A DNA stretch of 64,000 bases from Nakamurella leprariae (GTDB lineage: Bacteria; Actinomycetota; Actinomycetes; Mycobacteriales; Nakamurellaceae), in the NCBI RefSeq assembly GCF_016918035.1, contig NZ_JAERWK010000012.1, positions 1 through 64,000 of the forward strand. The letters are read 5' to 3'. The number at the start of each line of letters is the position of its first letter. Position 1 is the stretch's first letter. The position numbers were made by a program, and so were the translations under genes. The notes below the pieces were generated by a model. That model had not been told where the DNA came from. It did not search any database and saw only the letters and a program-made list of their open reading frames with translations. Shown in pieces: positions 59,434-64,000 of the stretch.

Positions 59434-61013
<1,580 letters not shown>

Positions 61014-62035: not shown

Positions 62036-62743
62036 ATGGGCGACTGGCTGATCGACGGCGTCGGGGCCGTGCCGGCCCCGGCCGTCCTGGCCCTGTGCGC
62101 GCTGGTCCTCGCGGCCGAGACCGCGCTGCTGATCGGCGTGGTGCTGCCCGCCGCATCGGCGCTGGCCCTGCTGGGCGCGGCGGTCGGGACCGGCGCCGTG
62201 CCCGCCGCGGTCGCCGTGCCGGTGGCCGTGACGGCCTCGCTGACCGGCGGCATGGTCGCGGTCGCCCGGGCCCGCCGCCCGGTCCCGCGAGCAGGCAGCC
62301 CCGCCGCCGTCCGGTGGTCGGGCGTCCGCCGTTCGGCCCCGTTCGGTCGGCTGGAGCGCCGGCTGCACCGGCACCTCGGGAGCGGGGCGCCGTCCTGGCC
62401 GGTGGTCACCGTCGGGCACGTGCTGGCCGGGGTGCGCACCCTGGTGCCGCGGCTGGCCGGCAGCCGGGGGATCGGCGTCGGCTGGTGGGCGGCCGCGGCA
62501 GCGCCCGGTGCGGTGCTGTGGGTCGGCAGCTGGACCGCGGCCGGCGCCGCCGGTGCCCAGGTCCTGGACCGGCTGGACACCGTCAGCAGCGCCGTGGTCC
62601 TGGCGCTGCTGGTCGGTGCCGTCCTGACGCTGGCCGGCGTGGCCGTCCGGACCGTGGTGCGCCGGGCCGTGGTGCACCGGACCGCGGTGCGCCGGTCCCG
62701 ACGCGGGCGAGCCGGGTCGACCCCGATCCCCGCCACGGCGTGA
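62036..62743 (+). CDS. DedA-like membrane protein
   Basis: A 235-residue protein with four or five membrane segments. VLALCALVLAAETALLIGVVLPAASAL resembles the re-entrant first half of DedA proteins (usually ENxGLPIPGE), and VGHVLAGVRTLVPRLAGSRGIG matches their FIPGVRTLxPxxAG motif, followed by AAAPGAVLWVGSW. DedA proteins act in lipid flipping and membrane homeostasis. The usual Glu and Arg of the first motif are only partly kept. It is coupled by position to the methyltransferase upstream. Confidence 0.78.
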   Translation: MGDWLIDGVGAVPAPAVLALCALVLAAETALLIGVVLPAASALALLGAAVGTGAVPAAVAVPVAVTASLTGGMVAVARARRPVPRAGSPAAVRWSGVRRSAPFGRLERRLHRHLGSGAPSWPVVTVGHVLAGVRTLVPRLAGSRGIGVGWWAAAAAPGAVLWVGSWTAAGAAGAQVLDRLDTVSSAVVLALLVGAVLTLAGVAVRTVVRRAVVHRTAVRRSRRGRAGSTPIPATA

Positions 62744-62745
62744 AC

Positions 62746-63126
62746 TCAGTCGACGTCGCTGTCCCCGGAGTGAACGTCGCCGGCCGGGCCCTCGGGGCGA
62801 CGGCCGAGCTTGCCGCGGCCCATGGCCAGCAGCATCATCCCCAGATCGGTGCCGGCCGGGCCGAGGCCGCGGAAGCGCTCCAGGATGGCCATCTCACGGC
62901 TGTAGACGATGCGCGGCCCGCCCAGCTGCTTGCGGGCGGCGCCGATCGCGTTGGACAGGGCGGTGCGGCGCTTGATCAGCCGCACGAGTTCGGCGTCGAT
63001 GTCGTCGATCTCGAGCCGCAGCGTGTCGATCCCGGCCTGGTCGGCCGGCACCGGCACCGGCCCGCCGGTCGGTTCGTCGGCTCGGGCGTCGTCGGACCGG
63101 AGCTCGGAGCCCAGCGTGCTGGTCAT
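62746..63126 (-). CDS. Chorismate mutase (AroQ type)
   Basis: A 126-residue enzyme that converts chorismate to prephenate, the branch to phenylalanine and tyrosine. The AroQ helical pattern is clear: IDTLRLEIDDIDAELVRLIKRRTALSNAIGAARKQLGG in pieces along residues 33-70, then RIVYSREMAILERFRGLG. It resembles the intracellular enzyme of M. tuberculosis (Rv0948c), which is poorly active until bound to DAHP synthase. ATG at 63126 follows GAAGGA. The upstream RNA has an aromatic-residue leader peptide and a terminator, so expression is probably controlled by attenuation. Confidence 0.9.
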   Translation of the reverse strand: MTSTLGSELRSDDARADEPTGGPVPVPADQAGIDTLRLEIDDIDAELVRLIKRRTALSNAIGAARKQLGGPRIVYSREMAILERFRGLGPAGTDLGMMLLAMGRGKLGRRPEGPAGDVHSGDSDVD

Positions 63127-63168
63127 GTCGTCCTTCAATCTGCCCGTCCGTCCCGGCGCCCGGCACGG

Positions 63169-63199
63169 AAAACGCCCCGGGTCGAAGGACCTCGGGGCG
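63169..63199 (-). terminator. Intrinsic terminator in the chorismate mutase leader (attenuator)
   Basis: On the minus strand CGCCCCGAGGTC, the loop CTTC, then GACCCGGGGCG form an 11-bp stem with one bulged A, followed at once by TTTT. Such a T-run is unusual in this GC-rich window. The hairpin lies between the leader peptide stop and the chorismate mutase start, the usual place of an attenuator. Confidence 0.8.
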
Positions 63200-63215
63200 C
63201 GTCGTGGCGGATGTG

Positions 63216-63275
63216 TCAGCCGCGGACGGGCACCGGAGTCCGGTACCCGTAGGAAAAGCCGCGGCAGGAGTGCAT
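63216..63275 (-). CDS. Leader peptide of the chorismate mutase attenuator
   Basis: A 19-codon frame reads MHSCRGFSYGYRTPVPVRG and ends in TGA 16 bases before the terminator hairpin. It holds one Phe and two Tyr, the end products controlled by chorismate mutase. The Tyr codons sit in the 5' arm of a hairpin (CGGGTACCGG with CCGGTGCCCG, 63227-63249). A ribosome waiting there would open that hairpin and free 63223-63232, which is also complementary over 10 bases to 63141-63150 next to the chorismate mutase ribosome site. CACACT seven bases before the ATG could be a -10 for a leaderless start. Confidence 0.65.
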   Translation of the reverse strand: MHSCRGFSYGYRTPVPVRG

Positions 63276-63437
63276 GGCGGGGAGTGTGCCACAGCGGTCC
63301 GGTCCGGCGGAACCCGGGACGCGGGACGCCACCGGATCGAGTCCGATGAATCGGGCTGCCGCGGGCCGTCCGACCGAGCATCGACAGCGGCCGCGCCGGG
63401 GCGCCCGCTGGTGCCGTGGACGGACGGGAGTCGGCCG

Positions 63438-64000
63438 ATGGACGAGCAGGACCGCGGTGGCGAGGTGACCTGCAGCGTGGCGGTGTCGCTGGACGGGTAC
63501 GTGGCCGGGCCCGACCAGCGCCTCGACCAGCCGTTGGGGCGGTGGGCCGAGCAGCTGCTGCACCGGTGGATGTTCGACGAACCCGAGCAGCACCGGGCGG
63601 AGCTGGCGGCGATCACCGACGCCGGGGCGTTCGTGATGGGCCGCAACATGTTCGGACCGGTCCGCGGCGGGTGGGACAGCTGGGCGGGGCCGGATCCGTG
63701 GCGCGGCTGGTGGGGCGAGGCTCCGCCGTACCACGCGCCGGTCTTCGTGCTCACCCACCACGAGCGGGAGCCGCTGACCATGGCGGGCGGCACCACCTTC
63801 GTCTTCGTGACCGAGGGACCGGAGGTGGCGCTGACCCGGGCGCGGGAAGCGGCTGGGGCCAGGAACGTCGCGATCGCCGGAGGGGCGGCCACGATCAACC
63901 AGTACCTGCGGGCCCTCGCGATCGACGAGCTCCGGCTGCACGTCGCCCCGGTCACCCTGGGGGCCGGGGAGCGGCTGTTCGACGGGGTGGGACGACTGGA
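63438..64000 (+). CDS. Dihydrofolate reductase-family protein (RibD C-terminal type), 3'-truncated by window end
   Basis: The frame from ATG 63438 stays open to the end of the window (187 residues). It fits the RibD_C/DHFR-like fold: CSVAVSLDGYVAGPDQ at the N-terminus, AGAFVMGRNMFGPVRG, VFVLTHHEREPL, and NVAIAGGAATINQYLRALAIDELRLHVAPVTLGAGERLF near the visible end, in pieces. Such stand-alone proteins are NADPH-dependent reductases of unknown substrate. It is divergent from the chorismate mutase leader across 162 bases. The last residues lie beyond the window. Confidence 0.88.
   Translation, partial: MDEQDRGGEVTCSVAVSLDGYVAGPDQRLDQPLGRWAEQLLHRWMFDEPEQHRAELAAITDAGAFVMGRNMFGPVRGGWDSWAGPDPWRGWWGEAPPYHAPVFVLTHHEREPLTMAGGTTFVFVTEGPEVALTRAREAAGARNVAIAGGAATINQYLRALAIDELRLHVAPVTLGAGERLFDGVGRL

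Follow-up and report, generated by a model that had tools for sequence, protein, structure and literature searches.

A conserved aromatic leader peptide, hairpin and terminator upstream of chorismate mutase in Nakamurella and other actinomycetes resemble a ribosome-mediated transcription attenuator

In Escherichia coli, a proteobacterium, the Phe-sensing leader pheL precedes pheA, which encodes a fused chorismate mutase-prephenate dehydratase. In Corynebacterium glutamicum, an attenuator formed by the AroR leader and aroF (DAHP synthase) was reportedly described by Neshat et al. in 2014, and the AroR transcript is leaderless. Leaders for other amino acids occur in actinobacteria, and the abstract of a 2005 survey of Actinobacteria is said to include cys leaders too. 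In the available text of the sources, aroF of C. glutamicum is preceded by a Phe-Tyr-Phe leader peptide that acts by ribosome-mediated attenuation (PMC4046766, PMC11802643) and responds to Phe limitation, not to Tyr limitation (PMC11802643); the same available text mentions the pheL-pheA attenuator of E. coli (PMC11802643). Leader attenuators of actinobacteria are described, again in the accessible portions, for trp, leu and ilv (PMC1262725, PMC8079986) and for cys (PMC4633059). According to the available part of the 2005 survey, conserved RNA structures were not seen ahead of Phe/Tyr operons (PMC1262725); the available part of a study of S. lividans gives eight leaders, none of them for Phe, Tyr or chorismate mutase (PMC8079986). 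The word "chorismate" is absent from the main text, as available and with supplements outside the search, of PMC2965389, PMC13236596, PMC4633059, PMC9094748, PMC6448022, PMC5784534, PMC4833913 and PMC4046766.

The window analysed here is a 64,000-nt stretch of Nakamurella leprariae DNA, in which a free-standing chorismate mutase (CM) gene is preceded by a short aromatic leader frame. Judging from the sequence, this element very probably controls the CM by ribosome-mediated transcription attenuation, with the charging of Phe- and Tyr-tRNA as the signal sensed. By analogy, the closest known case is AroR/aroF, which, as far as its available descriptions go, shares with the CM leader the aromatic leader peptide, ribosome-mediated attenuation, the pathway and an actinobacterial host, but controls DAHP synthase, whereas the gene downstream in the window is a CM. 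The pheL-pheA system likewise places a Phe-sensing leader before a gene with chorismate mutase activity; it differs in its fused pheA, the gene of the window being a free-standing AroQ CM and its leader having both Phe and Tyr codons. The actinobacterial trp, leu, ilv and cys leaders are short, often leaderless and provided with regulatory codons, like the CM leader, and concern other amino acids. The earlier note knew of no attenuator for a free-standing CM, and none was found in the literature searched, as far as its texts were available and with supplementary tables outside the search, which is not proof of absence. The kind of attenuator is known; what appears to be new, within the searchable literature, is the member at the CM, the breadth of its occurrence and its sequence family.

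On the minus strand the locus reads, in order, an extended -10 box, the leader frame, an in-frame hairpin, a terminator, a Shine-Dalgarno sequence and the CM gene, with the following features:

63283..63293, minus strand: predicted promoter box of the extended -10 type, TGTGGCACACT, whose end lies 7 nt 5' of the leader start codon; the signal comes from 80 leaders
63216..63275, minus strand: leader frame MHSCRGFSYGYRTPVPVRG followed by a stop, 19 codons, ATG at 63275, TGA ending at 63216; conserved in relatives
63249..63257, minus strand: putative sensing codons TTT-TCC-TAC (Phe-Ser-Tyr); Phe-Phe/Tyr-Tyr in most relatives
63226..63250, minus strand: leader hairpin P1 (1:2), in the reading frame, arms 63240-63250 and 63226-63236; covariation across families
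63233..63241, minus strand: candidate antiterminator strand 2 (GGACTCCGG), from family-wise pairing and folds
63187..63195, minus strand: candidate antiterminator strand 3 (CCGAGGTCC), inside the terminator 5' arm and loop edge
63169..63200, minus strand: intrinsic terminator (3:4), stem 63172-63200 and TTTT tail 63169-63172; conserved
63131..63145, minus strand: box GGGCAGATTGAAGGA containing the CM Shine-Dalgarno sequence (GAAGGA, 63131-63136); several close relatives have GGGGCAGAATGAGGA
62746..63126, minus strand: CM gene, AroQ type, 126 aa, start at 63126, from Pfam and NCBIfam

The leader frame, hairpin, terminator with TTTT and Shine-Dalgarno sequence all lie where the earlier note had placed them. 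P1 has 11 bp and a loop of 3 in the window, and the terminator stem is predicted at -23.0 kcal/mol. The region 63110-63300 folds at -95.8 kcal/mol vs a shuffle mean of -80.2 (z -3.5), and none of 200 dinucleotide shuffles is as stable. The CM assignment is sound: the product scores 41.4 bits against PF01817 (cut-off 27) and lies above the cut-offs of two NCBIfam chorismate mutase models, NF005894 and TIGR01808. A scan of 62500-64000 with Rfam 15 (E up to 5) returned seven miRNA matches, all below their gathering scores and none over 63126-63275.

The same layout bears on the notion that the frame is a conserved small protein or a re-initiation frame, followed by an ordinary terminator and with no amino acid sensing. 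Many genes of Actinobacteria have short frames in front of them, according to the accessible text of PMC4833913, but here 89 nt separate the leader stop codon from the CM start, with the terminator in that gap. The upstream neighbour, a plus-strand frame from about 63438 with a RibD_C domain, is divergent, so the terminator serves no upstream gene. Selection on the aromatic codons and on the alternative pairings, described below, speaks against a mere small protein, and we regard this explanation as very improbable.

Three further observations concern the window and its genome. The GGGGCAGAATGAGGA box round the CM Shine-Dalgarno sequence is strongly conserved in several Nakamurella loci (L004, L005, L010, L016, L018-L020) and may have a role beyond ribosome binding, a second promoter being one conceivable role. 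The genome of the window holds a second PF01817 chorismate mutase domain in another frame (L126, G000:C16), the product of which is perhaps exported, as its start resembles a lipoprotein signal by eye. At about 59440-59530 of the window, a low-complexity repeat encodes, by eye, the Asp-rich tail of a minus-strand frame resembling a sensor kinase.

The CM is present in 17/17 family genomes searched, all of one genus, with 19 matches, one of which is a contig-end fragment. The earlier note had proposed to look in related actinobacteria for an aromatic short frame followed by a terminator before the CM, and this arrangement was found at 17/18 other CM loci read in Nakamurella, hairpin included (one of the 17 read as copy L022 of the same contig), and at 10/10 loci read in Pseudonocardia, Crossiella and Allokutzneria; its proposal of an aromatic-amino-acid attenuator before the CM gains support from this conservation. 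The sole exception in the genus, L017, is the second CM copy of genome G004, the other copy of which (L020) carries leader, hairpin and terminator. The Pseudonocardiales count leaves out L034, which starts at a contig end, and ten more distant loci (L035-L044) stand outside the counts. Leaders of the genus end in a form of F/Y-rich-G-Y-R-x-P-V-P-V, followed by a hairpin like CGCCCCGAGGTCC...GGACCCGGGGCGTTTT, and the window's own copy is among the more diverged ones. The hairpin position was set by hand in five loci (L013, L029, L030, L031 and L033), and for the terminator, antiterminator and P1 statistics the ten Pseudonocardiales loci were placed in family f14 by inference.

To follow the element further, an RNA model (R1) was built from 27 leaders of Nakamurella and Pseudonocardiales. 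It matches in 265/298 genomes drawn from the order (E <= 0.01), in 97/197 from the class and in 12/119 from the phylum (E <= 1e-4), counts that are upper bounds for the element because weak matches include plain terminators. A CM lies downstream at 69 of the 79 R1 loci checked (order 30/30, class 19/29, further set 20/20), a non-random set that joins the best-scoring loci to a hand-picked spread of families, contains the window and Nakamurella loci again, and counts one genome twice (L076, L119). At five of the ten non-CM loci an aromatic leader stands before a class I DAHP synthase (L088, confirmed with Pfam, and L094, L095, L097 and L098, assigned by evident similarity); the other five are without such a leader. 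The 12 genomes of the phylum search divide into five CM cases already seen, five (f61, f63) with an aromatic leader before an apparent DAHP synthase and two with plain terminators. Among the matches set aside are two others in the window's genome, which by eye look like ordinary terminators after a protein-coding frame, and L093, L096, L099, L100, L101, L172 and L176, which have a terminator without aromatic leader or CM.

In the converse, gene-first test, a CM of this type was found in 32/128 class genomes (35 matches, E <= 1e-9), several of them identical to genomes of the class-level R1 search. An aromatic leader lies upstream of 26 of the 30 class-wide CM loci read (25 by script, L153 by eye), which agrees with the search that the earlier note had suggested; one of the 30 is cut by a contig end, and at three, L137 and L144 (genus g20) and L146 (genus g38), no leader was recognised before the CM. 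Both of these genera nevertheless keep an aromatic leader before the DAHP synthase (L163, L166, L169). Besides Nakamurella, Pseudonocardia, Crossiella and Allokutzneria, further actinomycete families have the module before the CM.

The codons were compared in 80 CM-linked leaders of 17 families, comprising the 27 of the first alignment and 53 others, with repeats removed. Counted back from the hairpin, aromatic codons occur at -3 in 77/80, at -2 in 66/80 and at -1 in 76/80 leaders; at -2 the window has Ser, leaving one Phe and one Tyr at its three putative sensing positions. The earlier note had matched the Phe and Tyr codons of the leader to the products of the pathway, and this holds for the conserved aromatic run before the hairpin and less so for Tyr codon 11 inside it, which is kept in only 43/80 leaders; for that reason sensing most likely falls to the codons that directly precede the hairpin. 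On its codons, the leader has the appearance expected of an attenuator, being short and rich in codons for pathway products. Phe at codons -4 to -1 is written TTT in 90/138 cases, vs 0/13 Phe codons in the CM genes of 53 loci (Fisher p 3e-6, only a guide because the leaders are related) and 0/11 in three genes of the window. At codon -3 (63255-63257 in the window) TTT stands in 69/80 leaders, and Arg at codon -4 is CGA in 39/80.

In hairpin P1, 715/814 cells are paired (87.8%) over 74 rows, against at most 46.1% for slid pairings; the statistics use 74 of 77 rows, L089, L090 and L103 having been dropped for a shifted register. Double-change cells number 36 vs 14.0 in shuffles, with 0/1000 as high, and 11 vs 5.5 with one row for each of 16 families, with 1/1000 as high, both in shuffles that leave relatedness in place. 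Within the first 27 sequences, hairpin and terminator gave no covariation beyond shuffles (145/500 as high), because P1 and the terminator are too conserved there. Across families, the arm pairs GGG/CCC, GGC/GCC, GGT/ACC and GGGA/TCCC substitute for one another.

These substitutions touch on the idea that the nascent peptide FFYGYRxPVPV itself stalls the ribosome on a metabolite, in the manner of an arrest peptide, rather than through shortage of charged tRNA. Many families keep the C-terminal GYRxPVPV to a striking degree, its proline-rich residues included; against this, the arms still pair, as far as checked, in the variants PVAV, PAPV, GNR, GIR, TGSPAAV, NRPTGCHGRAA and DRARSPL (the f32 form by eye), as expected if selection acts on RNA, and the steadiest feature of the peptide is the aromatic run before the hairpin. 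Peptide arrest is accordingly improbable in our estimation, and GYRxPVPV appears to follow the RNA.

An intrinsic terminator lies between leader and gene, as in attenuators, and was found by script in 77/80 CM-linked elements, L123 with its doubtful fold among them. By eye, the script misses L030 and L032 also show a terminator stem; L092 (G118) has leader and CM without a terminator, possibly a natural loss of the switch. The alternative structure that is conserved is, to judge from the sequence comparisons, an antiterminator between the leader and the 5' arm of the terminator, which the earlier note had missed. In the window it pairs 63241-63233 with 63195-63187, where eight of nine bases pair, one of them as G-U. 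Over the 27 sequences, 88.9% of its cells are paired vs at most 67.5% for slid pairings, and 6/500 shuffles are as high. Averaged over 16 families, own pairing amounts to -14.8 kcal/mol vs -13.1 with the families permuted, and 1 of 10,000 permutations is as good; this test used 76 of 77 elements, L123 being left out for its doubtful terminator fold. The own pairing beats both crosses in only 9/16 families, and in the family of the window it is no better than others, the leader giving -13.3 with its own terminator arms and -13.6 with those of other families. The covariation of P1 and, between families, of the antiterminator is directly observed, as are the parts and their conservation.

The effect of a stalled ribosome was modelled by folding the RNA downstream of it, before strand 4 exists, with 9 protected bases assumed downstream of the A-site codon. 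For the window, the folds predict strand 3 to be bound upstream at 10/13 bases with the ribosome at -3 or -2, at 8/13 with it at -1, and at 3/13 with it at +1 or at the stop codon. The same contrast between stalls at -3/-2 and the stop codon appeared in six other sequences, one from Nakamurella and five from other families; in L119 a stall at +1 also leaves strand 3 bound. With no ribosome present, 6/13 bases of strand 3 are already bound in the window, and in L024, L116 and L085 the binding equals that of the stalled state. These folds and the family test suggest a mutually exclusive antiterminator that a stalled ribosome would free, weakly so in the family of the window. Once the RNA is folded at full length, the terminator belongs to the most stable structure whatever the state of the ribosome, which means that the choice has to be made kinetically.

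The earlier note also pointed to an alternative pairing of 63223-63232 with 63141-63150 that would exclude the leader hairpin, so that stalling could affect access to the ribosome site. In a reading built on it, leader translation would open or close the ribosome site of the CM through this pairing. The 10-base complement is present, and the longest complement between leader and Shine-Dalgarno region in the window, 11 bases with G-U, is reached by 4/200 shuffles; L008 and L015 have pairings of 8 and 7 bases with similar sequence. In the other 16 Nakamurella loci, however, the longest such complement is matched or exceeded in 20 to 199 of 200 shuffles, and the terminator is kept. For this test the Shine-Dalgarno region was a stretch of fixed extent behind the terminator, the end of which did not always coincide with the CM start. 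Being at shuffle level in 16/17 Nakamurella loci, the pairing was rejected as a conserved device, and translational control of this kind seems highly unlikely to us.

Upstream of the 80 leaders a -10 signal stands out (T at -7, A at -11, TG at -15/-14), which is shifted by one base in the window. The box usually stands 6 nt before the leader start codon (7 in the window), at a nearly fixed distance, the start codon having been chosen as that nearest to the hairpin within 21-54 nt, with a few choices visibly doubtful. Because the box is 6-7 nt before the start codon, the leader frame is probably leaderless, its start codon at or near the RNA 5' end. A transcription start downstream of 63216 had been named as an observation that would speak against the attenuator; the start is instead predicted, though not mapped, at the leader.

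From these elements we infer where transcription begins, that the leader is translated, that ribosomes stall on it, and which way and how strongly the gene responds. In the attenuation reading, RNA polymerase would start at or next to the leader start codon, as the -10 box suggests, and the leaderless 5' end would let a ribosome bind directly and follow the polymerase closely. When Phe and Tyr are ample, the ribosome would reach the stop codon and block the pairing of the leader with strand 3, whereupon terminator 3:4 would form and transcription would end near 63169. Under a shortage of Phe- or Tyr-tRNA, the ribosome would presumably stall on the codons before P1 and break it, strand 2 would be free to pair with strand 3, the terminator would come too late, and the CM gene would be transcribed. 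By analogy with AroR, Phe may matter more than Tyr.

Aromatic leaders were also seen before DAHP synthase, at L158-L169 (f7), at L088, L094, L095, L097 and L098 (f31), at L170-L171 (f61) and at L173-L175 (f63), and the forms include WRFYFEW, YWRFIEAPGEPA, VYFWFSxPA, SFWYGDGP and YFWFYGTSG. In f7, a pattern search without chance control placed an aromatic leader upstream of the class I DAHP synthase (PF00793) in 12/12 genomes picked; these leaders read WRFYFEW, YWRFIEAPGEPA or VYFWFSxPA, lack GYRxPVPV, and in one case contain the F-Y-F run described for AroR. The leaders of f31, f61 and f63 (FWRFYGYRP, RFFYGGWSP, YFWFYGTSG) resemble both the CM type and the AroR type, the latter known by description only. 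The genome of the window has no match to PF00793 (class I DAHP synthase).

It is quite possible, if a little short of probable, that one ancient leaderless attenuator of the FFYG type governs both entry points of Phe/Tyr synthesis, DAHP synthase and CM, across much of the phylum Actinomycetota, and that selection has placed TTT, a codon hardly used elsewhere in these GC-rich genes, where the ribosome stalls, so as to sharpen the sensing of Phe-tRNA charging. The DAHP synthase leaders would extend the AroR type far beyond Corynebacterium. Actinomycetes make many Phe- and Tyr-derived antibiotics, and the CM leader would give the CM of these bacteria a transcriptional control, none having been found described in the available text of the literature searched. 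It would also go beyond what the accessible part of the 2005 survey (PMC1262725) offers on Phe/Tyr operons. The RNA model may be used to annotate many genomes, and the family would offer RNA switches with natural variation, suited to separating constraints on the peptide from those on the RNA.
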